Of a stretch of 32,073 nt of DNA, positions 8,247-18,038 are shown one piece after another. Position numbers and translations under genes: made by a program. The notes under the pieces are model-generated. The model made no database searches, had not been told where the DNA came from, and was given only the letters and a program-made list of their open reading frames with translations. The stretch's first letter is position 1. The number at the start of each line of letters is the position of its first letter. The stretch spans positions 1 through 32,073 of the forward strand of contig JAUVLV010000028.1 in the NCBI GenBank assembly GCA_030600545.1, given 5' to 3'. The stretch is from Candidatus Aegiribacteria sp. (GTDB lineage: Bacteria > Fermentibacterota > Fermentibacteria > Fermentibacterales > JCC-6).

Positions 8247-8448
8247 GGAACCAGCAGGTTACTGCCTTCAAAGGAAGTTCCGGAAGAGATTATACTGCCG
8301 ACTGAAGCCATTAGTGTTGACCAGTTAAGGATTTCGTAATAATAATTGAATAACGTTTCCGGCATGAACAAACCAAACCCTCCTCTTCCGCAAAAAATTG
8401 ATTATTGTACTTGTTAAACCTACATCCTCCAGGAAAAGGAGAATCAGT

Positions 8449-9801
8449 TTGGAAACAGAATCCGGCTTTGATGGTGAATCGCACGGTGAAAAAATGGATA
8501 GAATGCAAAGTGCTTTAACCGACCTGAAAAAAAGGAATACTCAGCTGAAACGCAAGCTGCAAAGCCTTGAACTCGTTTTCAGGAACGCTGTTGATCTCCT
8601 TGTGGTTGTTGATGCTCCTACGGGCAAAATACGAAGGGTAAGCGATGCCGCTGAAGCTGTGCTGGGCTACAAACACTCGAACCTTATCGGTTTAAAACTG
8701 TCTGAGATTCTTCCAGCTGATAAAGAAAATGACCATTTGACCCTGGAAGATAACATCCCTGAAATCGTTGACGGTGTATTTCTTGATCAGAAACTTAAAT
8801 GCCATGACGGTTCATTCAAATCAATGGATATGACCATCAGCCTGGTGGACAACAATGATTTAAGTGCTATTCTTTTAACCTTCAGAGACACTTCCGAAAG
8901 AAAGCTTCACCTGAGAGAAATGATAAAGAAGAACAGTGCCCTTGAAAGTGCTCTCAGTGCCATGATCATGGCTGACAGTTCCTGGAAAATAGACTATGCT
9001 AACCTTGAAGCTCTCAACTACTGGAGATACAACAGAACCAACATTCTTCACCTTGAACTTTCTGACCTTTTCTCTTTCGTAGATGATTTTGAAAATATGA
9101 AGTCATGCATTGATGAGAAGGGTCAGTGGGATGATGAAGTTGAATGCCTGCGCAGAGACAGCACAAGTTTCATAACGCATGCTACTGCTGTGGCTGTGAA
9201 TAACGATGATGATGACATCGACCCCTGTTATGTTCTTTCCTTCCTGGATATCACAAAACGAGTCAGTATGGAAAAGAAGCTTACGGAACTCTCCCTCCGC
9301 GATAATCTTACCGGCCTGTACAACAGGCGCGGGTTCATGACTCTTAGCAGGCAACTGCTGGATTCGTCACGGCGGAAGCAGCCGGAAATTGGACTTCTAT
9401 ACGTTGATATCGACTACCTCAAGCTGATAAACGATGAACTGGGCCATGCAGAAGGTGACAAAGCGCTTGAAACAACAACTGAAATATTGAGGAACTGCTT
9501 CAGAGATTCGGACATCATAGCCAGATTAGGCGGTGATGAGTTCGTAGTGCTTTTCCTTGATACAACTGAGTTCACCGTACATTCAATCAGGGAAAGGATA
9601 GACAGCAAAATCAAAGAATCTGAAGAAACCAGATTGCTTCCATTCATGCTGTCCCTCAGCATTGGATATCATACTACCGTACTGTGTTATCAGACTCAGA
9701 TCGGACGACTTCTCAGCTATGCCGACTCGCTTATGTACGAAGACAAAAAAAGCAGAAGAAGCCGCATCAGTGAGGAAGACATCCTGCACAATAAGGGATA
9801 G
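8449..9801 (+). CDS. PAS-PAS-GGDEF diguanylate cyclase
   Basis: The enzyme makes the second messenger cyclic di-GMP from two GTP. I place the start at TTG 8449, which has AAGGAG seven bases upstream; a TTG at 8398 lacks a ribosome binding site. The 450-residue product has an N-terminal coiled coil (about residues 17-40), a PAS domain (about 40-150, with GKIRRVSDAAEAVLGYKHSNLIG), a second, weaker PAS (about 160-270) and a GGDEF domain entered by SLRDNLTGLYNRRGF. The active-site motif RLGGDEF is intact near 361-365, and the inhibitory I-site RDSD lies exactly five residues before GGDEF, so product feedback is likely. There is no signal peptide or membrane segment: a soluble sensor enzyme. The PAS ligand is unknown. 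Confidence 0.93.
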   Translation: METESGFDGESHGEKMDRMQSALTDLKKRNTQLKRKLQSLELVFRNAVDLLVVVDAPTGKIRRVSDAAEAVLGYKHSNLIGLKLSEILPADKENDHLTLEDNIPEIVDGVFLDQKLKCHDGSFKSMDMTISLVDNNDLSAILLTFRDTSERKLHLREMIKKNSALESALSAMIMADSSWKIDYANLEALNYWRYNRTNILHLELSDLFSFVDDFENMKSCIDEKGQWDDEVECLRRDSTSFITHATAVAVNNDDDDIDPCYVLSFLDITKRVSMEKKLTELSLRDNLTGLYNRRGFMTLSRQLLDSSRRKQPEIGLLYVDIDYLKLINDELGHAEGDKALETTTEILRNCFRDSDIIARLGGDEFVVLFLDTTEFTVHSIRERIDSKIKESEETRLLPFMLSLSIGYHTTVLCYQTQIGRLLSYADSLMYEDKKSRRSRISEEDILHNKG

Positions 9802-9894: not shown

Positions 9895-10272
9895 ATGACA
9901 TCTGAGAACAGGCCTGACCAGACCCGTTTTGATAGCCATGCTGATATACTCAAAGCCTTAGCGCATCCTGTCAGGCTCATGATTATCGATCAGCTTCTAT
10001 TGAACCCGAAGTGCGTCATGGCCATTCATGAAATACTGGATGTAAGACAGTCTAACATTTCTCAGCATCTCTCGATTCTGCGAAATTCCGGAATAGTTGC
10101 TTCTGACAGCGACGGCTCCTACAGATACTACTACGTTCGAAGGCCCGGCCTTTTAAAAGCAGTGTTGGAAACCTTAGATACTGACTGGCCTGAAACGGAT
10201 ATCGAAGAAGTTAGAAAAAAATTCAAAAAGGCATTAAACAAGAACCAGAAAAAACAGGGGATTAACCCCTAA
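9895..10272 (+). CDS. ArsR-family transcriptional regulator
   Basis: The 125-residue winged-helix repressor has the classic ArsR core: ADILKALAHPVRLMIIDQLL (about 16-35), recognition helix region VRQSNISQHLSILRNSGIV (about 50-68) and beta-wing SDGSYRYYYVRRPGLL (about 72-87), then a basic tail. The metal-binding CVC motif of ArsR/SmtB is absent; only one cysteine (C40, LNPKCVMAIHEIL) exists in the protein. It is therefore unlikely to be an arsenic or zinc sensor of the standard kind, and it also lacks the two-cysteine pair of known persulfide sensors. It is the first gene of the sulfur/Hdr operon; its TAA stop forms part of the TAAAGGAG ribosome binding site of the next gene. Confidence 0.92.
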   Translation: MTSENRPDQTRFDSHADILKALAHPVRLMIIDQLLLNPKCVMAIHEILDVRQSNISQHLSILRNSGIVASDSDGSYRYYYVRRPGLLKAVLETLDTDWPETDIEEVRKKFKKALNKNQKKQGINP

Positions 10273-10283
10273 AGGAGTCTTTA

Positions 10284-10637
10284 ATGGGAAAAGTAGCAAT
10301 CATCCGTAATGGAAGCGAGAACTCAAATTTGTATCCAACATTCATAATGGGTTCTGCAACTGCTGCATCCGGTGATGATGTAATAATATTCTTCACACCC
10401 GGAGGTGTTCCAGCTCTCAAACCAGGTTATCTGGAAAGTTTAAATGCATAAGGCATGCCTGCAATGAAAGAACTGCTTGAAGGCGTAATGGCTCTCGGCG
10501 GTCGCATGGTACTTTGCGAACTTGGTCTTGAAGCCAAGGATGTAACCGCAGAAGACCTCAGGGATGATATTGAAATAGGCGGAGCAACCAGTTTCATGGC
10601 CGACATAAAAGATGCAAAAACAACATTCTCATTCTAA
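10284..10637 (+). pseudogene. DsrE-family sulfur-transfer protein interrupted by an in-frame TAA
   Basis: Reading from ATG 10284 (AAAGGAG just upstream) gives 55 residues resembling the first half of small DsrE/DsrF-like proteins: start MGKVAIIRNG, then GDDVIIFFTPGGVPALKPGYLESLNA. A TAA stop follows at 10449-10451. The same frame continues at once with GMPAMKELLEGVMALGGRMVLCELGLEAKDV and ends with IGGATSFMADIKDAKTTFSF at 10637, a normal family C-terminus including the LCELGLEAK cysteine segment. One base change (AAA to TAA, Lys expected in xGMP) would explain it. Either the gene is newly broken, the base is an error, or translation restarts at ATG 10455 to give a separate 60-residue protein. 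DsrE-family members relay persulfide sulfur with TusA, the next gene. Confidence 0.8.
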
Positions 10638-10657
10638 CACGAAAGGAACGATGTACA

Positions 10658-10882
10658 ATGGCTTCACGTACACTTGATGCTTTAGGACTTAAATGCCCCC
10701 AGCCGATACTGAAAATAGCTGTATTAGCCAAAGAGCTGCAGCCGGGCGACATGCTGGAGGTTCTCGCGAACTGCCCCTCCTTCCCTGTTGATGTTAAGGC
10801 CTGGTGTGCAAGAACCGGAAAAACCCTGCTGTTCTGCGCTACTGAAGGAGACGGCAAGCATAAAGCACAGATCCAGTTTTAA
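10658..10882 (+). CDS. TusA/SirA-family sulfur carrier protein
   Basis: The 74-residue protein has the family motif LDALGLKCPQPILKIAVLAKEL at the N-terminus, where the cysteine of CPxP (residue 13) carries a persulfide. The rest follows the two-layer alpha/beta fold: GDMLEVLANCPSFPVDVKAWCARTGKTLL. Extra cysteines occur at about 39, 49 and 59. TusA-type proteins deliver sulfur to tRNA thiolation, molybdoenzymes or sulfur-oxidation and reduction complexes. Here, directly after a DsrE-family gene and 18 bases before MvhD, a redox role in sulfur trafficking is more likely than tRNA modification. ATG 10658 is preceded by GAAAGGAACG, an acceptable ribosome binding site. Confidence 0.93.
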   Translation: MASRTLDALGLKCPQPILKIAVLAKELQPGDMLEVLANCPSFPVDVKAWCARTGKTLLFCATEGDGKHKAQIQF

Positions 10883-10899
10883 AATTGGGCGAACCAATA

Positions 10900-11322
10900 A
10901 TGGAAATTTTTGAACCGCGTATCATAGGGTTTCTATGTAACTGGTGCTCTTATGCGGGGGCCGACCTTGCCGGTACAAGCAGGCTGAAGATGCCCCCGAA
11001 CCTGGTTCCCGTAAAAGTCATGTGTTCCAGCCGGGTAGATCCGGAAATGGTTACGGATGCTTTCCTCCGCGGTGCCGACGGCGTACTTATCGCCGGTTGC
11101 CACCCGGGTGATTGCCATTACGATAAAGGGAATTATTACGCAAGGCGGAGATTCGCGGTTCTGAAGAAGGTAGTCGAGAGCCTGGGCCTTGAAGCTGAAA
11201 GGCTCCGTCTCTCATGGATATCCGCCTCGGAGGGAGCCCGGTTTCAGCAAATCGTGGCAGAATTCACTGAAACGATAAGGAAACTGGGACCAAATCCCAC
11301 ACAAAAGGAAACTCTTCTATAG
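10900..11322 (+). CDS. mvhD: MvhD/FlpD-type iron-sulfur subunit
   Basis: The 140-residue protein matches the delta subunit of methyl-viologen-reducing hydrogenase, a [2Fe-2S] protein that passes electrons into HdrA. All expected cysteines are present: FLCNWCSYAGADLAG (C13, C16), KVMCSSRVDP (C42) and IAGCHPGDCHYDKGNYYARRR (C67, C72). The length fits the family. ATG 10900 is preferred over TTG 10885, which would begin three bases after the tusA-like stop. The gene overlaps the next (HdrA-type) gene by one base. No hydrogenase subunits are present, so electrons must enter from or leave to something else, as in formate- or NADH-linked MvhD-HdrA systems. Confidence 0.93.
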   Translation: MEIFEPRIIGFLCNWCSYAGADLAGTSRLKMPPNLVPVKVMCSSRVDPEMVTDAFLRGADGVLIAGCHPGDCHYDKGNYYARRRFAVLKKVVESLGLEAERLRLSWISASEGARFQQIVAEFTETIRKLGPNPTQKETLL

Positions 11323-12602
11323 TGGCGTCCGATATCCTTGTTATAGGAGCCGGTGTTGCGGGAATGAAGGCATCACTTCTTCTGGCTTCAGCCGGAAGAC
11401 ATGTTCATCTGATTGAGAGCACTTCCGTAATAGGCGGCAGGCTTATACGGTGTGAAGATATCTTTCCCGCGATGGAATGTGCAACATGTATGGTTTCGCC
11501 CATGCAGCAGGAAATACTCCGAAACGATCTCATAGATGTGGTAACTCTTGGAGAGGTACTTAGCGTTGAAGGCTCAAAGGGAGAATTCCGGGTAAAGATA
11601 CTGAAAAAAGCTTCATGCGTAGATCCTATTGCATGCATAGGCTGTGCGGAATGCTGGAATGCCTGCCCGGTTGAAAAAAATAATGAATTCGAGGAAAATC
11701 TTTCAAAAAGAAAGGCCATTTCCGTCCCCTGCGCCGGAGCTCTTCCAAACGTCCCTTGGATAGACAAAGATATCTGTCTCAGATGGAACGGTGACGAAAA
11801 CTGCAATCTGTGCACAGAAGCCTGTGTCTTCGAAGCCGTGGATTATTCAGATGAAGACTCTGAGTCTGAAATAACCGTATCGGACATAATACTGGCGACA
11901 GGTTTCCAGCCGCCCCCGGGAAAATCGTTTGAAAGATTCCTCTGGGGAAGCAACCCGGGTGTATTCACCGCATCCGAATTCGAACGGTACTACTCATCAA
12001 ACGGTCCCACATCAGGAGAACTGCTTACAAAGGACGGGCAAACACCTGATTCGGCGGCTGTAATCGTTCATGCAGGCGGCATCGGCAGTTACTCAAACAT
12101 CAATACCATGTACTCCCTCAAATTTCTTCATTACCTGAAGGAAAAACTCCCGGATATTCACCCCGTGGTTTTACTTGACGCATCCTATTCTCCCGATAAA
12201 CTCCAGGACAGATACCACCAGGAATGGCGGAGCGCGGACACAGACGTGATTATTTACACGCAGGTTCCAGATGTGCATACGACAAAAGACGGAAAAAGCC
12301 TTAGTATTACCTGCAAAACAGAGGGAGGCAGTTTTTCGGCAGAAGTTGATCTGCTTCTGCTTGGCACGACAATGTTGCCTTCATCCGGAACAGCGAAGTA
12401 TATCGAACTCCTTGACATTGAAGGCAATGAAGACGGATTCGCGGGAAATCCCGAACCAGATCATTCTTCTGTACTTACCACCGTTTCAGGTATCTTCGCG
12501 GCGGGATGCGCAAGCGGTCCCTTGGACATCGCAGCTTCTGTAACCAGTGCCGCAGCCGCGGTCGGCAGAGTGCTGGCAAACTCGAAAGGCAGAGTATCGT
12601 GA
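11322..12602 (+). CDS. HdrA/QmoA-like flavoprotein 1 (FAD domain with inserted ferredoxin)
   Basis: The 426-residue protein starts directly with the FAD-binding Rossmann motif VIGAGVAGMKASLLLASAG (about 7-25), followed by IGGRL and the HdrA-typical MECATCMVSP. An inserted ferredoxin-like section holds CIGCAECWNACP (C105-C115) and C152, C161, C164, C168, enough for two [4Fe-4S] clusters. The C-terminal GIFAAGCASGPLDIAASVTSAAAAVGRVL closes the FAD fold. Compared with full HdrA (about 650 residues) it lacks both the N-terminal cluster domain and the C-terminal ferredoxin; those appear in the next gene instead. This resembles the QmoA half of sulfate-reducer Qmo complexes. The GTG start overlaps the mvhD stop by one base. 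It is predicted to be cytosolic, with a possible role in electron bifurcation. Confidence 0.9.
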   Translation: MASDILVIGAGVAGMKASLLLASAGRHVHLIESTSVIGGRLIRCEDIFPAMECATCMVSPMQQEILRNDLIDVVTLGEVLSVEGSKGEFRVKILKKASCVDPIACIGCAECWNACPVEKNNEFEENLSKRKAISVPCAGALPNVPWIDKDICLRWNGDENCNLCTEACVFEAVDYSDEDSESEITVSDIILATGFQPPPGKSFERFLWGSNPGVFTASEFERYYSSNGPTSGELLTKDGQTPDSAAVIVHAGGIGSYSNINTMYSLKFLHYLKEKLPDIHPVVLLDASYSPDKLQDRYHQEWRSADTDVIIYTQVPDVHTTKDGKSLSITCKTEGGSFSAEVDLLLLGTTMLPSSGTAKYIELLDIEGNEDGFAGNPEPDHSSVLTTVSGIFAAGCASGPLDIAASVTSAAAAVGRVLANSKGRVS

Positions 12603-13807
12603 GAACCGGCGTTTTCGTGTGTAGCTGCGGTCCGAATATTGGCGATAGAATTGATATTGAGAAGATAGCAAAAGAAGTTTCGGAGATTGAGGGTGTTGTC
12701 CTCTCGGAAACTTACGGTCTGCTCTGCTCTCCCGACGGAAAAAAGTACCTTGCTGATAAAATTACTGGAAACAGCCTTGACAGGATAGTTATCGCGGCAT
12801 GTTCCCCGCGGGAACATGAGGAAACATTCATGAAAGTCTGCGAAACTGCAGGACTGAACCCCTTTATGATGCAGATGGCCAATATACGCGAGCAGGTTGC
12901 GTGGGTAACACCAGATAAAAAATCCGCTACGGAGAAGGCTCTGAAACTCGTAAGGGGTGCCATAAACAGGACCAGTCGCCACAAGCCGCTCGAGAAAACA
13001 AGCATTGTTTGTAATCCTGAAGTTGTAGTAATCGGTGGCGGAACAGCAGGCATGACCACTTCTCTTCTTCTTGCGGATGCCGACCGAAGGATAACCATTA
13101 TTGAAAGAAGCCCTTCACCTGGCGGTTCTGTAACACTCGAGAATGAAAAGCTGGTGGAAAACCTTTCGGCAAAAGTAGCCGGGCGAAGCGAAATAAAGGT
13201 AATAACCGGACTGGAACCGGAAGAGATCGTGGGTTTCTTCGGAAACTTCATTGTCAACCTCGGCAAAGACTACGATGAGATCAGAGCCGGAGCGATAGTT
13301 CTTGCAACAGGATGCTCAAAGGATGAAAGCGGCAGAGCCATCGCCTCAGAAGGATTCAGGGAGATGGCTGAAATGCTGCGAATCTCAACCGATCAGGATG
13401 GCTTCCCCGCAAGAGAGCACGATTCCCTGGCACCAATATCAACTCCTATCAACGGCGTATATGTAACCGGATGCGCTGGAGGTCCCTGCAGCCTCAGAGC
13501 AACCGTATCACAATCTGAAGCGGTAGCCGGAACCATACTATCCTCCCTCATACCGGGAAGGAAAGTTGAAACCGAGCCCAGAACGTCCGTTATATCCGAA
13601 ACACTCTGTCGTGGATGTATGACATGCATGGAGGTTTGCGGATACGGAGCAATATCCTTCAATGAAGAAAAACTGGTCTGCCATGTAAACAGTGTTCTTT
13701 GCAAAGGATGCGGCAACTGCGCTGGTGCATGTCCTTCCGGAGCCATCAGGGCTCAGCATTTTACTCCAGACCAGATACGTTACCAGATGGCAGGAGTTCT
13801 GAGATGA
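12599..13807 (+). CDS. hdrA: HdrA-like flavoprotein 2 (N-terminal cluster domain, FAD domain, C-terminal ferredoxin)
   Basis: The start is GTG 12599, overlapping the previous stop by four bases (GTGA), because the true HdrA N-terminus begins there: RTGVFVCSCGPNIG. The 402-residue protein has the N-terminal HdrA domain with cluster cysteines C8, C10, C43 and C68 (IAACSPREHEETF, NIREQVAWV), a FAD motif VVIGGGTAGMTTSLLLADAD (143-162), and a C-terminal ferredoxin with CRGCMTCMEVC (337-347) and CKGCGNCAGACP (368-379). The ferredoxin normally inserted in the FAD domain is missing; the preceding protein has it. The two genes therefore look like complementary halves of an HdrA core, similar to QmoA/QmoB, with MvhD separate. 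The stop overlaps the next ATG (ATGA). Confidence 0.92.
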   Translation: MRTGVFVCSCGPNIGDRIDIEKIAKEVSEIEGVVLSETYGLLCSPDGKKYLADKITGNSLDRIVIAACSPREHEETFMKVCETAGLNPFMMQMANIREQVAWVTPDKKSATEKALKLVRGAINRTSRHKPLEKTSIVCNPEVVVIGGGTAGMTTSLLLADADRRITIIERSPSPGGSVTLENEKLVENLSAKVAGRSEIKVITGLEPEEIVGFFGNFIVNLGKDYDEIRAGAIVLATGCSKDESGRAIASEGFREMAEMLRISTDQDGFPAREHDSLAPISTPINGVYVTGCAGGPCSLRATVSQSEAVAGTILSSLIPGRKVETEPRTSVISETLCRGCMTCMEVCGYGAISFNEEKLVCHVNSVLCKGCGNCAGACPSGAIRAQHFTPDQIRYQMAGVLR

Positions 13808-14868
13808 AGGGTGCAGCGTTGGAATCAGGAAAAGGAATAAAATCCATACTTATCGATCTGATGACAGATGCCCTTAACAATGGTGCTGTCAGCTCTATTC
13901 TAGTGCCCTCAACGGGACCTGATAATTCCTTCCCCTGGACTCTTGTAACCGATGTTTCCTCTCTGGATCGAGCTGAACCCATTCCTCCTATAATGTCCGT
14001 TCAGGGAGCAAAAGCCCTGGCTTCATTCACTCAGTTTCCAGAAGAAGGAAGGTTGCTTGCCGTTATGCGCCCGTGTGAGGCAAGGGCTGCAATCGAACTT
14101 TCGAAGCTTGAACAGATCGATCTTAACAATATTATTCTTCTCACATTCGATTGTCCTGGCGCGGTACCTCTTTCCGAATTCGGAGATGATGGTATAATGA
14201 AACCGGACATTCAACAGTCGGAAACCATTCGCCCCCTCTGCAGGCAGTGTACCAGCTTCACCTCGGAAGGTGATGTATGCCTGACATGCAATGAAGACGA
14301 TCGGATTCTGGTTCCCCTGACCACCAAAGGGCAGAATTTTCTCGATTCACTCGGCAAAAGGGCGGAAGCGGATGCTTCAGCATGGATGAAATGGGCGAAG
14401 GATCTCAGTGAAGAACGGCAAAAGATAAAGAAGGATGCCGAGAATAAGCTGAAGAGCACATATGGCGGACTGAATGGATTAGCCGAATTTTTCAGCGGAT
14501 GCATCTCTTGCCGTAACTGCAGAAAGGTATGTCCCATATGCTACTGCAGACTATGCTTCATCGACATGAAAGACAGGCGCTCCCCTTCTTCTGAGTACCT
14601 TGAGCATTCCAGTAACGCCGGAGCAGCAAGGCTTCTTTCTAATACACTTCTCTTCCATGTGGGCAGAATGGCCCATATGAGCCTTTCATGTGTATCTTGC
14701 GGAATGTGCGAAGATGCCTGTCCATCTGATATACCAATCGGCAGGCTTGTCAGCATGGTTTCAAGTAACACTACCGATATCTTCGGTTACAGTGCGGGAA
14801 GTAATCCTGAAGACCCTCTTCCCCTCAATACTTTCCAGCTGGAAGAACTTCATGAATACGAAGACTAG
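13804..14868 (+). CDS. FrhB/FdhB-type iron-sulfur flavoprotein 1
   Basis: ATG 13804 has GGAG seven bases upstream and overlaps the hdrA stop by four bases; the product is 354 residues. The first 230 residues resemble the F420-reducing hydrogenase/formate dehydrogenase beta family: a QGAKAL segment, MRPCEARAAIEL (the PCQ-like motif), ILLTFDCPGAV, and CRQCTSF. A second pair, CLTC, follows nine residues later, unlike its paralogue. The C-terminal third carries two [4Fe-4S] sites: GCISCRNCRKVCPICYCRLC and CVSCGMCEDACPSDIP. In FrhB the ferredoxin is N-terminal, so the order is permuted. Family members bind FAD and exchange electrons with F420, NAD(P)H or ferredoxin; the partner here is unknown. 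Confidence 0.82.
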   Translation: MKGAALESGKGIKSILIDLMTDALNNGAVSSILVPSTGPDNSFPWTLVTDVSSLDRAEPIPPIMSVQGAKALASFTQFPEEGRLLAVMRPCEARAAIELSKLEQIDLNNIILLTFDCPGAVPLSEFGDDGIMKPDIQQSETIRPLCRQCTSFTSEGDVCLTCNEDDRILVPLTTKGQNFLDSLGKRAEADASAWMKWAKDLSEERQKIKKDAENKLKSTYGGLNGLAEFFSGCISCRNCRKVCPICYCRLCFIDMKDRRSPSSEYLEHSSNAGAARLLSNTLLFHVGRMAHMSLSCVSCGMCEDACPSDIPIGRLVSMVSSNTTDIFGYSAGSNPEDPLPLNTFQLEELHEYED

Positions 14869-14887
14869 TAATCCTGGAGGTGGATGG

Positions 14888-15979
14888 TTGGCTGAAAACA
14901 GCGTACTTATATCCGATGCGTCAATGCAGGATACTCTTAGATATATACTGCATCACCTTCTTGAAACCGGTGAGGTTGATTCCGTTTTCGGCCTCCGCGG
15001 AACAAAGCAGGAAGGCAGATACTGCTATTCACTGATTTCCGACCCGTCTATGCTGAACGAAATCCTGCCTTTTTATCCGGTTATGCCGATTCAGGGGGCA
15101 AGAGCTTTATCGGAATTGACTATTACTAAACCACTTGATCGCCCCGTTGCCGCTCTGCTGAGACCCTGCGAGATCCGGGCATTTGTAGAGAATGTCAAGC
15201 AGTCTCAGGGAAATCTTCAGAATATTTTCGTGATCAGCTGCACATGCCCCGGAGTGATTCCAGCACGAGAATTGCTCACGGAAGACAGACAAAATGTTCT
15301 TAAAAACCATGATGAGAATATCAGATCCGCATGTAAAGCATGTACTGAATTCATTCCCGGACAGCAGGCAGATATGATCGTTCTTACAGCTTCGGATAAA
15401 CCGCAGGATGAAACGATCATCTATCTGCAAACGGAAAAGGCTGCTGAAATTGCTGAAACCCTCGATTCCTATAAACTGGAAACGGGTTTGCCCCTTGATA
15501 AAATCACGTCTGAACTTCTAAAGACCAGGAAAAAGGCTCTCGAACACCTGCTCGGAACAATACCGCCAGTAGCTGAAGGCCTGCAATCACTGGTTTCCCT
15601 CTTCTCAGCATGTATAGGATGCCGCGGATGCAGAGAGGTATGTCCTTTATGCAGCTGCATACTCTGCGATTATGAAACTGCCCGAACGATCCATTCTCCC
15701 GGACTGGTCAGGGCCGAATCAAAGCTCAGGGGATCACTGAGGGTACCTTCCGGAACAATTCAGTTCCAGCTTGGCAGACTGATGCATATTGCGCCTATGT
15801 GCATCGCATGCGGTCAATGCAGCGATGTATGCCCTGTTGATATCCCGGTATCTGACATCTTCATAAGGGCAGGAAATCTGGTTCAGGAATCTCTTAACTA
15901 CCACCCCGGCAGAGACGTTGATGATCCCCCACCCATGGCTACATATTTAGCAGACGAACTGCTTGAAATAACTGACTGA
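14888..15979 (+). CDS. FrhB/FdhB-type iron-sulfur flavoprotein 2
   Basis: The product is about 363 residues from TTG 14888, seven bases after a perfect GGAGG; an upstream ATG (14852) within the previous gene has no ribosome binding site. It is a clear paralogue of the preceding protein: IQGARALSEL, LRPCEIRAFVENV, VISCTCPGVIPAREL, CKACTEFIPGQQADM (closer to the FrhB CxxC-D-F...AD motif), then CIGCRGCREVCPLCSCILC and CIACGQCSDVCPVDIP, and the shared tail motif NYHPGRDVDDPPP. It lacks the extra CxxC pair of its neighbour. Tandem copies suggest a heterodimer, one arm perhaps contacting the HdrA core and the other a soluble electron carrier. It is the last gene of the operon. Confidence 0.82.
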   Translation: MAENSVLISDASMQDTLRYILHHLLETGEVDSVFGLRGTKQEGRYCYSLISDPSMLNEILPFYPVMPIQGARALSELTITKPLDRPVAALLRPCEIRAFVENVKQSQGNLQNIFVISCTCPGVIPARELLTEDRQNVLKNHDENIRSACKACTEFIPGQQADMIVLTASDKPQDETIIYLQTEKAAEIAETLDSYKLETGLPLDKITSELLKTRKKALEHLLGTIPPVAEGLQSLVSLFSACIGCRGCREVCPLCSCILCDYETARTIHSPGLVRAESKLRGSLRVPSGTIQFQLGRLMHIAPMCIACGQCSDVCPVDIPVSDIFIRAGNLVQESLNYHPGRDVDDPPPMATYLADELLEITD

Positions 15980-16008: not shown

Positions 16009-16485
16009 CTATTTTATTATATCCGATGGTACTTCGAACAGGCAGTTGTAGGGCGCACTGAAATAATCTCCAAGCAGGTCTTCAGGCTGGCCAACAGCTT
16101 CAAGCGAATCCCTCCAGTGAGAGAATGATACAGACCCTGTACTGGCTCCGATTACCCGGAGTATTCGCATCATTTCTCCGACTTCCCATATGTAGCTGTC
16201 GGCTTCTTCGATGTCCAGGATAACTCTTTCATTAACGTGGCAGGTCAGAAAATAATCCATAAGAGGATCGGTAGACCAGAAGGACATTATCTTTCCGCTC
16301 TCGTCACGAATGATCGGATGAATGTAATCGCCGACTTCATAACCCAGGAAAATACCGCTTACAGTTGTGGAATCGTATACAATGTTTGGCGGAATTTCAA
16401 AGTCATCCGCAACCACGCCGGATAGAACAGCCAGAATAAATATCAGGTTCAAATTCAACCTCATTCCTATTGAAAAATACTCCAT
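16009..16485 (-). CDS. Small exported protein of unknown function
   Basis: The 158-residue product begins with a clear signal peptide (MRLNLNLIFILAVLSGVVA, then DDFEIPPN), so it is exported. I use ATG 16485; the in-frame ATG at 16464 (MRLNLN) gives a more typical signal peptide and may be the true start. The mature protein is acidic with many aromatic residues, two cysteines and no recognisable domain. A pattern such as VSGIFLGYEVGDYIHPIIRDESGKIMSFW suggests a small beta-barrel (OB-like) fold. It converges with the Hdr operon and is divergent from the CoADR-type gene, with no operon partner. Confidence 0.7.
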   Translation of the reverse strand: MEYFSIGMRLNLNLIFILAVLSGVVADDFEIPPNIVYDSTTVSGIFLGYEVGDYIHPIIRDESGKIMSFWSTDPLMDYFLTCHVNERVILDIEEADSYIWEVGEMMRILRVIGASTGSVSFSHWRDSLEAVGQPEDLLGDYFSAPYNCLFEVPSDIIK

Positions 16486-16682: not shown

Positions 16683-18038
16683 ATGAAATCATATGATGTA
16701 ATTATCATCGGAGCCGGTCCCTCGGGAATTGTTACAGGAATAACTGCCAGAAAACAGAATCCGGAAAAGTCCATTCTTATGATCAGGGAAGAGGAAAAGG
16801 GTCTTGTTCCGTGTGGAATTCCCTACATTTTTCATGACCTTGACGATATATCACAGAACCTCATGGGACCTGCACCATTCGTAAATGCTGGCGGCGAGGT
16901 TCTGGTTGACAAGGTAACCGATATCGATATTCGCGGCAAGACTCTTCAAACCGAGTCCGGAAATGGTTTTTCTTACGGCAAGCTTGTCTTTGCGACCGGT
17001 TCAATCCCAACCATTCCAACGTTTATCAGGGGTTACGATCTGGAGAATGTTGAATACATCGCAAAAAGTTTCAATTACATCAACGGGCTTATGGATCGGA
17101 TAAGACCCGCAGTGGATATTGTTGTCATCGGAGGAGGGTTCATAGGCGCCGAAGTTGCTGAGCAGCTTGCTAAACACAGAGACAAGAATGTAACGCTGGT
17201 CGAAAGGGAGAATCATTGCCTTTATCGCGCTTTCTCAGCCGATTTTGCAGCACTTGCTGATGAACATCTAAGGAATGCCGGAGTGAATGTATTGACAGGC
17301 TGTACCGTTAAGGAACTTCAGGGCAGCAGTGGTAAAGTTGAGTCGGTTATACTGGAAGATGGAAGATCGATCAAAGCTGACCTGGTTTTCTCAGCAATAG
17401 GATACAAACCCCGAACCGGGCTCGCGGCCAGGGCCGGTCTTCAGCTGACAAGTAACGGAACGATCAGAGTTGACAGGTACCTGCGTACCGAGGAGAAGGA
17501 TGTATACGCAGTTGGAGACTGCTCACAGACTTCCGGTTTCATAACAGGCAGAACGGATAATATAATGCTGGCCTCAACGGCTACGGCAGAGGCAAGAATA
17601 CTGGGTTACAACCTGTTCAGCATCAGCCTGCTCCGTACTTTTTCTGGAACACTGTCTGTGTTTTCTACCGAACTGGACGGGTTCGTATTCGCTTCTGCGG
17701 GGGCGATTGAACAAACAGCTGAGGAAGCAAACGTGGATTACGTGATCGGTAGATTCGAAGATGTCGATCGCCATCCAGGTACACTGCCGGGTGCGAAGAA
17801 GATAATAATCAAGATAATCGTCTCTCCTGAAAACGGTGAGATAATCGGTGGAGAGATCTACGGCGGGAAATCCGCGGGGGAACTAATAAATGTTATCAGT
17901 CTTGCTATTCAGAAATACGTTACAGTGTATGAGATGATATCCTTTCAGACCGGAACGCATCCTCTGCTGACAACCGCGCCAACGAAATATGCACTGGTCA
18001 AGGCATGTGAAAACGCTATTGTGAATATAGGAAAGTAG
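16683..18038 (+). CDS. CoA-disulfide/persulfide reductase-type flavoprotein
   Basis: The 451-residue FAD/NAD(P)H oxidoreductase belongs to the CoADR/NADH oxidase/Npsr branch of the pyridine nucleotide-disulfide reductases. The FAD motif IIGAGPSGIVTGITA is at 8-22, the single redox cysteine at C44 (LVPCGIPYIF, the hallmark of the branch), the NAD(P)H motif VVIGGGFIGAEVAEQL near 146-161, and the second FAD motif VYAVGDCSQ near 277-285. The C-terminal dimerisation domain follows; there is no fused rhodanese domain. Members reduce CoA disulfide, CoA persulfide, polysulfide or elemental sulfur with NAD(P)H. AAGGAG precedes the ATG. Placement just after the TusA/DsrE/Hdr operon supports a sulfur role, but it has its own promoter. 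Confidence 0.88.
   Translation: MKSYDVIIIGAGPSGIVTGITARKQNPEKSILMIREEEKGLVPCGIPYIFHDLDDISQNLMGPAPFVNAGGEVLVDKVTDIDIRGKTLQTESGNGFSYGKLVFATGSIPTIPTFIRGYDLENVEYIAKSFNYINGLMDRIRPAVDIVVIGGGFIGAEVAEQLAKHRDKNVTLVERENHCLYRAFSADFAALADEHLRNAGVNVLTGCTVKELQGSSGKVESVILEDGRSIKADLVFSAIGYKPRTGLAARAGLQLTSNGTIRVDRYLRTEEKDVYAVGDCSQTSGFITGRTDNIMLASTATAEARILGYNLFSISLLRTFSGTLSVFSTELDGFVFASAGAIEQTAEEANVDYVIGRFEDVDRHPGTLPGAKKIIIKIIVSPENGEIIGGEIYGGKSAGELINVISLAIQKYVTVYEMISFQTGTHPLLTTAPTKYALVKACENAIVNIGK

Follow-up and report, generated by a model that had tools for sequence, protein, structure and literature searches.

A TusA-linked Hdr-type operon in Fermentibacterota and other mostly uncultured groups as a candidate for cytosolic reduction of carrier-bound sulfur

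The window analysed here is a stretch of 32,073 nucleotides, contig C44 of genome bin G000 (2.29 Mb, 73% complete), and among the named genomes scanned its nearest relatives belong to Candidatus Aegiribacteria and other Fermentibacterota. On the + strand of the window, positions 9895-15979 hold eight consecutive frames that Pfam and NCBIfam assign to an ArsR regulator, a DsrE-like protein, TusA, MvhD, two HdrA-like proteins and two FrhB/FdhB-like subunits, which confirms the family set named by an earlier note on this DNA, apart from an interruption in DsrE. The order DsrE-TusA-MvhD-HdrA-HdrA-FrhB-FrhB recurs in many genomes and is no local accident or product of chance. The best reading of this gene set is a cytosolic complex that would handle carrier-bound sulfur, and we propose that this Hdr-type complex reduces TusA-bound sulfane sulfur with a soluble electron carrier, a proposal that we put at slightly under even odds (about 0.47).

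TusA is linked to the Hdr core within and beyond Fermentibacterota

Among 42 Fermentibacterota genomes searched with FrhB-like 2, 25 gave a match at E ≤1e-10 and 19 at ≤1e-40, and the 20 loci fetched comprised 16 of the window type and 4 of another type. Ten of the window-type loci have a contig that reaches the position just ahead of MvhD, and all ten have TusA there, preceded by a complete DsrE in 9 of them and, in the tenth, by a DsrE inside which the contig ends; the remaining 6 of the 16 contigs end at or past the TusA/MvhD point. At the genome level, an operon-type TusA (E ≤1e-40) was present in 20 of the 42, and a strong FrhB match was found in 18 of these 20 versus 1 of the 22 genomes without such a TusA. 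In that single genome, G024, the contig ends inside HdrA1.

Beyond the phylum, named genomes were scanned with the FrhB-like 1 alignment and 80 of 283 confirmed relatives were kept, 41 of which entered alignment A2. These comprised 51 type-A loci, with the order MvhD-HdrA1-HdrA2-FrhB-FrhB, 9 type-B loci, with one long HdrA followed by MvhD, FrhB, FrhB and MvhD, 15 loci scored 'A?' (no complete HdrA1, mostly on cut contigs) and 5 unassigned loci. When the count is restricted to the 41 type-A loci that have 1600 bases or more ahead of HdrA1, TusA precedes the core in 35 and DsrE does so in 30, whereas neither gene occurred in any of the nine type-B loci in the DNA examined, which extends at least 1500 bases upstream in six of them and less than 600 in L075, L077 and L082. 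The difference in TusA gives Fisher values of 2e-6 with all nine type-B loci and 9e-5 with the six that have room, relatedness among loci being ignored. The 35 TusA loci are labelled Fermentibacterota, WOR-3, Stahlbacteria, Cloacimonadota, Delongbacteria, Krumholzibacteriota, Eisenbacteria, Latescibacterota, Neomarinimicrobiota, Mcinerneyibacteriota, Spirochaetales, Deltaproteobacteria, Armatimonadetes, Euryarchaeota and, for some, just 'bacterium'; a Thermoplasmata-labelled locus with less upstream room (L070) has TusA as well. These names are record titles and some genomes are perhaps misbinned, as may be the case for the Armatimonadota-labelled rows, which fall among Cloacimonadota in the tree. 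In L092, L098 and L102, of a Cloacimonadota-type branch, a second MvhD, a 653-residue HdrA and an HdrB-like frame stand upstream of the core in place of TusA and DsrE.

A similar association was seen in 147 genomes of the phylum to which a WOR-3 locus belongs, with operon TusA scored at E 1e-20. An adjacent FrhB pair, picked by eye from the match table, occurred in 14 of the 15 genomes with operon TusA versus 0 of the 132 without it, and the pair and TusA share a contig in 11 of the 14 (not in G121, G189 and G114). The fifteenth genome, G062, has a single weaker FrhB match, and weaker, unpaired FrhB-type matches are found in 35 of the 132. The co-occurrence of tusA with mvhD-hdrA-hdrA-frhB-frhB, which the earlier note had proposed as a check, is thus strongly supported both by locus (35/41) and by genome (14/15 versus 0/132).

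The operon encodes a distinct four-cysteine TusA and an interrupted DsrE

To judge by its sequence, the operon TusA (10658-10882, +; PF01206, 1.6e-16) is a distinct four-cysteine subfamily. Its C13, within the motif CPQP, and C39 are invariant in 43 of 43 copies, and C50 and C60 are present in 39 and 40 of the 43, respectively. The protein has the CPxP motif of the family, matches the TusA structure 3lvj at 3.2e-11, and was modelled by AlphaFold2 as a small alpha/beta fold with a pLDDT of 95. In an alignment of 37 of the 43 TusA ranges, the window copy is 58-89% identical to the others, including 78% for the Thermoplasmata-labelled one, in contrast to FrhB-like 1, which is only 34-44% identical to its relatives outside the window-type clade. 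The remaining TusA copies of these loci, except one in L126, look unlike it and score about 1e-13 to 1e-17 against the operon-TusA profile; a second copy of the operon type was found in 2 of 7 genomes tested.

The DsrE-like carrier (10284-10637, +; DrsE_2 at 7.9e-12 when an X is placed at the stop) is split in the window by an in-frame TAA at 10449-10451, with an ATG shortly downstream. All nine full-length relatives compared are intact at this position, and eight of the nine have an early cysteine that the window copy lacks. The window DsrE is accordingly a pseudogene, a re-initiated gene or a sequence error. We reject selenocysteine at this stop, since the codon is TAA and the nine relatives have a sense codon there.

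Genes for an FdhB/ElpB-like arm stand with those for MvhD and two HdrA-like proteins

The best solved relatives of the first FdhB/FrhB-like subunit (13804-14868, +) in a profile comparison are FdhB of Fdh-Hdr (9t1s, 1.8e-49, with an alignment that spans almost the full length), ElpB of Elp-Hdr (8rvu) and FdhB of M. hungatei (7bkb). Its AlphaFold2 model (pLDDT 84.7) leads to the same proteins in Foldseek, with 7bkb_E first (E 3.7e-18; TM 0.76 of the query) and 8rvu_E next, and with FrhB and chain B of P. furiosus SHI among later matches, behind FdhB and ElpB. The second subunit (14852-15979, +; FrhB_FdhB_C at 1e-4, just under the cut-off) has the same cysteine pattern. Fifteen cysteines are conserved in these subunits within the FdhB-aligned region (in subunit 2, in at least 76 of 77), so that both have the iron-sulfur ligands of an FdhB-like protein.

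The two subunits differ from FdhB in one stretch. The sequence GGAVT is present in all three FdhB chains compared, and the strict pattern GGxVT is found in 0 of 80 first-position and 0 of 77 second-position proteins, a few of which are truncated; restricted to full-length proteins, the counts are 0 of 78 and 0 of 76, and a looser pattern gives 1 of 78 and 0 of 76. We take this stretch to be the flavin-holding part of FdhB. Because it is missing, the label 'flavoprotein', which the earlier note had used for these subunits, is doubtful, and they would rather be an iron-sulfur wire without flavin. Their naming as FrhB/FdhB-type stands insofar as they are dicluster FrhB/FdhB-like proteins, and needs narrowing insofar as subunit 1 is closer to FdhB and ElpB than to FrhB. 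The suggestion that they take the place of HdrB and HdrC does not hold: in sequence and fold, subunit 1 resembles the electron-donor arm that acts via MvhD, and the HdrB position is therefore empty in the operon. ElpB of the Elp-Hdr complex takes electrons from F420H2 and relays them by way of FAD and clusters to the MvhD-like ElpC and on to the HdrA flavin (PMC12350162).

The later elements of this electron path have counterparts in the operon. MvhD/FlpD (10900-11322, +, with an alternative TTG start allowed by the frame at 10885; PF02662, 1e-54) is the predicted [2Fe-2S] connector to HdrA. HdrA-like 1 (11322-12602, +; PDB HdrA, 1.5e-58) is a flavin domain with an inserted ferredoxin that aligns to HdrA residues 146-569 (5odc), and HdrA-like 2 (12599-13807, +) combines an N-terminal domain, a shortened flavin domain and a C-terminal two-cluster ferredoxin. 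E356 and K409 are features named for bifurcating HdrA (PMC12054007). Their equivalents in HdrA-like 1, E221 and K267, are each present in 10 of 10 window-type proteins and in 43 of 43 (E) and 40 of 43 (K) others, so that MvhD and an HdrA with both residues occur together, as in HdrABC-MvhD complexes.

Four cysteines of HdrA1 around 'CVGR...YCS..CC', by contrast, are found in 0 of 10 window-type proteins versus 42-43 of 43 others. We take these to be the ligands of cluster HA4 in the HdrA flavin domain. HA4 carries the high-potential electron towards CoM-S-S-CoB (PMC12350162). Window-type HdrA-like 2 is moreover shorter by about 150 residues than its full-type relatives, and the two losses together suggest that the window type is a pared-down version of a larger complex. 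The complex may nonetheless carry out flavin-based bifurcation, as the E356/K409 equivalents are kept.

The window type also differs in its downstream end, since FrhB-2 has an MvhD behind it in 42 of the 53 loci with room that are neither window-type nor type-B, versus 0 of 11 window-type loci. In 34 of 34 split MvhD copies (e.g. L126:6556-6975), the frame is divided by an in-frame TGA at the first cysteine of CHPGDC, and these copies look like selenoproteins; the loci with split MvhD include L110, L111, L113, L114, L116, L121, L122, L126, L127, L129, L130, L132, L133 and L135 and are labelled Cloacimonadota, Delongbacteria and Armatimonadota.

Electron-transfer and sulfur-uptake modules adjoin related cores

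Bin G000 itself holds, on contig C8, a longer, full-type paralogous cluster with the order MvhD-HdrA-HdrA-FrhB-FrhB-MvhD, followed by a 1018-residue double HdrA, MvhD and a 4Fe-4S protein (whole in L112). Next come HydB-, HydG/AsrB-, HdrC-, HdrA-NuoE- and NuoF-like frames (NCBIfam, below cut-off; the HdrC is our reading of a Fer4_8 protein). The HydB-, HydG/AsrB- and NuoF-like electron modules are missing from the window operon. In the FrhB-1 tree, the Fermentibacterota window-type rows form one clade (12 rows, 100/100) apart from the C8-type rows, and a derivation of the window type from a Fermentibacterota C8 paralogue is thus unsupported; L096, the sister row, sits on a long branch and its position is unsure, and the three label changes in this tree are counted only as L062 and L063, cut upstream of HdrA1, carried no label. 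Dependence of the operon on the C8 paralogue is likewise unsupported, since G007 (97% complete) and G014 (98%) show only a window-type FrhB pair. Elsewhere in G000 (L139, G000:C40:50000-64000), frames similar to HydB and HydG lie ahead of a membrane complex that has NuoD/FpoD-like and antiporter-like frames and, from its gene content, may be related to a membrane-bound sulfane reductase or hydrogenase.

The earlier note had asked whether HdrB, HdrC or hydrogenase partners always co-occur with this gene set. Such genes do occur elsewhere in the genus, with an HdrC-HdrB-HdrA-like set on another contig in G000 and G015; constant co-occurrence was not found, as G012 (95% complete), which has the operon, gives only a partial hydrogenase match (profile positions 1-69), leaving dependence on hydrogenase unsupported. 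Since hydrogenase families are present in 35 and CCG in 26 of the 42 Fermentibacterota genomes, both may be partners in most of them. The sulfite reductase family NIR_SIR was found in 0 of these 42 genomes and in 11 of 14 control genomes, and on this ground we reject Dsr-linked disproportionation for the phylum.

On the sulfur side, DsrE-TusA in the Marinimicrobia-labelled L120 is preceded by a second TusA, Sulf_transp, two rhodanese-domain proteins, Porin_O_P and a two-domain rhodanese, and the Pfam names of the upstream cassette come from this locus alone. The five-gene cassette (YeeE-like, two rhodaneses, porin-like, two-domain rhodanese) lies upstream in 7 of the 80 loci (L085, L086, L095, L113, L115, L120 and L132); L079 has only the porin-like protein and the two-domain rhodanese. 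In the Fermentibacterota genomes G015 and G019, a YeeE-like gene and a second TusA are found about 9-10 kb upstream of the operon. By its predicted families, this upstream layout is that of a sulfur uptake and use pathway.

A model for reduction of TusA-bound sulfur, and its alternatives

Combining these elements, we infer the following course of events. Sulfane sulfur would be brought in by the YeeE-type transporter and rhodaneses and loaded on TusA/DsrE, and the complex, without an HdrB of its own, would be dedicated to the sulfur on its own TusA (and on DsrE where this is intact). Electrons from NAD(P)H or ferredoxin would pass through the FdhB-like iron-sulfur subunits to MvhD, which would hand them on to the HdrA-like 1 flavin and the HdrA-like 2 ferredoxin domains, and the TusA-bound persulfide would be reduced to give sulfide and free TusA.

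We favour this model because a dedicated TusA is accompanied by sulfur-uptake genes upstream (7 of the 80 loci), because electron modules adjoin the full-type core on C8, and because subunit 1 has an FdhB-like fold, FdhB and ElpB being the donors to the MvhD-type subunits of Fdh-Hdr and Elp-Hdr. The lack of NIR_SIR in the 42 genomes counts against sulfur delivery to Dsr. A further argument comes from Candidatus Aegiribacteria MLS_C, which holds the operon (L064) and is a presumed fermentative organism from a polysulfide-rich lake (PMC4846661).

Several observations weigh against the model. TusA is missing from 6 of the 41 type-A loci, the uptake cassette adjoins the core in no more than 7 of the 26 type-A loci that have 6 kb or more ahead of HdrA1, and no Sulf_transp (PF04143) match was found in the 73% complete bin G000. 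The operon has no HdrB-type subunit that would cleave the persulfide. Furthermore, HdrB-like frames, counted by cysteine pattern and not by profile, occur near the core in 8 of the 80 loci (L084, L092, L097, L098, L101, L102, L119 and L134), three of them (L084, L101 and L134) among the 35 with TusA, and in L084 (1566-5853) HdrC-, HdrB- and HdrA-like frames come directly before DsrE-TusA. HdrB may therefore take part in some hosts, and 'HdrB-less' fits the common core, not every host. With neither GGxVT nor a NuoF or HydG gene in the window operon, the NAD(P)H route is less clear; the loss of the HdrA1 cysteines and the shortening of HdrA2 weaken the claim of bifurcation; and the interrupted DsrE is either dispensable in the window copy or wrongly sequenced. 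Lastly, Williams et al. interpret a related cluster as one of sulfur oxidation (PMC8542988).

This last interpretation corresponds to the same machinery running in reverse, with sulfide or TusA-persulfide oxidised and electrons passed to ferredoxin or NAD in an sHdr-like manner, as proposed for Candidatus Stygibacter from its thiosulfate sulfurtransferase (TST) and Hdr genes (PMC8542988). The sulfur carriers and rhodanese, as in sHdr organisms, fit such a direction, whereas the operon's lack of an HdrB or lipoate-binding family, the absence of NIR_SIR from all 42 genomes and the presumed fermentative life of MLS_C (PMC4846661) speak against it, and we consider oxidation rather unlikely. A complex of the ordinary kind that balances ferredoxin and NAD(P)H, with TusA and DsrE as functionally unrelated neighbours, would account for the cores without TusA (6 of 41 type-A and all nine type-B loci); it is hard to square with the near-exclusive co-occurrence of the genes across genomes and the high conservation of the operon TusA, and strikes us as quite improbable.

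The carriers could instead supply sulfur for iron-sulfur cluster assembly or other biosynthesis, without being substrates of the complex. The very many cysteine ligands in the complex would agree with this, as would the role of E. coli TusA in tRNA thiolation, known from published abstracts, yet type-B clusters with similar iron-sulfur subunits have TusA in 0 of 9 cases, and in 7 of the 80 loci the genes for porin, rhodaneses and transporter ahead of the core suggest bulk sulfur uptake, so that we see little room for this explanation. Least probable, in our view, is that the chalcogen handled is a selenium or tellurium oxyanion. The upstream genes of L120 do match YedE/FdhT, ExtI and ExtH of selenium and tellurium operons in NCBIfam, but these matches are far below the curated cut-offs, the transporter has a match, likewise below cut-off, to TsuA, which carries thiosulfate, and two TusA and three rhodanese proteins suit sulfane sulfur equally well or better.

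Reduction of TusA-bound sulfur thus remains the preferred reading. A more far-reaching version of it would have the persulfide of the four-cysteine TusA itself act as electron acceptor at HdrA, in place of HdrB and CoM-S-S-CoB, in an old system of many bacterial phyla and some archaea in which cytosolic sulfur reduction is coupled to ferredoxin or NAD(P)H and needs no Dsr, Psr or hydrogenase. We regard this version as unlikely on balance, and lowered our estimate of it slightly because HdrB-like frames lie near the core in some loci.

Regulator, gene junctions and flanking genes

The first gene of the operon (9895-10272, +; HTH_5 1.3e-12, NF033788 5e-22) encodes an ArsR/SmtB-type protein, which heads the operon in relatives too and is likely its regulator. 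SoxR and sHdrR work by two-cysteine sulfane sensing, a mechanism that we do not assume here since the window ArsR has a single cysteine. The seven junctions of the operon are, in order, gaps of 11, 20 and 17 bases and overlaps of 1, 4, 4 and 17; the description of the genes as mostly overlapping by 1-4 bases thus fits three junctions and not the 17-base overlap or the three gaps. A Pfam scan of the operon proteins at E 0.01 found no CCG (HdrB), hydrogenase or membrane families, in agreement with the earlier note, and no lipoate-binding family was among the Pfam and NCBIfam matches listed for nine operon-region proteins, one of the two scans giving its best 25 families. Rfam gave no match in the window at gathering score.

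Directly upstream, a PAS-GGDEF protein (8398-9801, +) also precedes the operon in L037, L040, L041, L043, L048 and L050. On the other side, a protein without Pfam family (16009-16485, -) is convergent to the operon and adjoins it also in L037 (partial), L040, L041, L042, L043, L048, L050 and L054. Just past it lies a CoA-disulfide reductase-like FAD/NAD protein (16683-18038, +; NF007123 7e-65, below cut-off), with 88-92% identity to copies in L037 and L040 and no copy in the other fetched loci, some of which are cut.

Relation to known systems

The operon shares MvhD, HdrA and an FdhB-type iron-sulfur subunit with Fdh-Hdr and Elp-Hdr, which are built from FdhB/ElpB, MvhD/ElpC and HdrABC. FdhB-MvhD-HdrA arms are known, bacteria included (PMC12350162, PMC5736913, PMC6085437), and bacterial HdrBCA-MvhD-FdhBA sets have been described (PMC5736913). 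Unlike these systems, the operon has no HdrB, HdrC or FdhA, its HdrA is split in two proteins, and it has two FdhB-like subunits without GGxVT as well as sulfur carriers. Compared with HdrABC-MvhD complexes in general, the disulfide-cleaving subunit HdrB is missing and the four HdrA cysteines are absent from all 10 window-type proteins.

With sHdr, the operon has in common an HdrA homologue beside TusA and DsrE genes, although the match is weak (6tjr_A, 5e-13), 6tjr being, as we take it, sHdrA. It differs in having no HdrB/C (CCG) and no lipoate-binding protein, with MvhD and FdhB-like proteins instead; the association of sHdr with the lipoate-binding protein has been called inevitable (PMC6067878). 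ArsR-type repressors control thiosulfate oxidation in Hyphomicrobium (PMC12423496).

The nearest published arrangement is that of Candidatus Stygibacter (Cloacimonadota), whose Hdr genes are clustered with those for TST, TusA and a transporter of sulfur, with homologues in Candidatus Tenebribacter (PMC8542988). This is the same kind of neighbourhood, and in L110, labelled Candidatus Stygibacter frigidus, TusA stands directly before the core. In the parts of that account available to us, sulfur oxidation is inferred and MvhD and the FdhB-like subunits are not named (PMC8542988), so that a related cluster has been noted in part and the TusA-linked FdhB-like composition is not described there. 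TusA and DsrE genes, with YeeE-like genes near the operon in relatives, also recall the YTD cluster of sulfur disproportionators, in which YedE/YeeE, TusA, DsrE and conserved hypotheticals occur in Dsr organisms (PMC9751629, PMC8528874, PMC12998232). No Hdr core is named for YTD in the parts available, NIR_SIR is absent from the 42 genomes here, and G000 has no PF04143 match.

The HydB- and HydG/AsrB-like genes (below cut-off) that follow the full-type core of G000 resemble P. furiosus sulfhydrogenase and AsrAB, and SHI chain B is a weaker fold match of FrhB-like 1; no hydrogenase or siroheme subunit was seen beside the core, however, and the modules are missing from the window operon. From Qmo the operon differs in having no QmoC-type membrane family (Pfam, E 0.01). 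HdrA and MvhD have been proposed as a link between sulfur and carbon metabolism in Desulfurivibrio dismutans (PMC12142623).

Our searches of open-licence PMC papers turned up no account of this pairing of TusA with FdhB-like subunits or of how widely it occurs. The gene set recurs in several mostly uncultured groups, namely Fermentibacterota, WOR-3, Cloacimonadota, Delongbacteria, Krumholzibacteriota and Eisenbacteria, and a WOR-3 strain has been reported to use elemental sulfur as electron acceptor, with dsr and psr absent from representative genomes (PMC12542636). With its defined carrier protein, the operon offers a concrete candidate for a sulfur pathway that is missing so far, can be put to the test with recombinant proteins, and could explain sulfur use by some anaerobes without the usual enzymes. 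Its parts and principles are known (FdhB-MvhD-HdrA arms, a TusA/DsrE relay, YeeE import), and their combination, if the proposed function is true, would widen the view of what HdrA complexes use instead of HdrB and a heterodisulfide.

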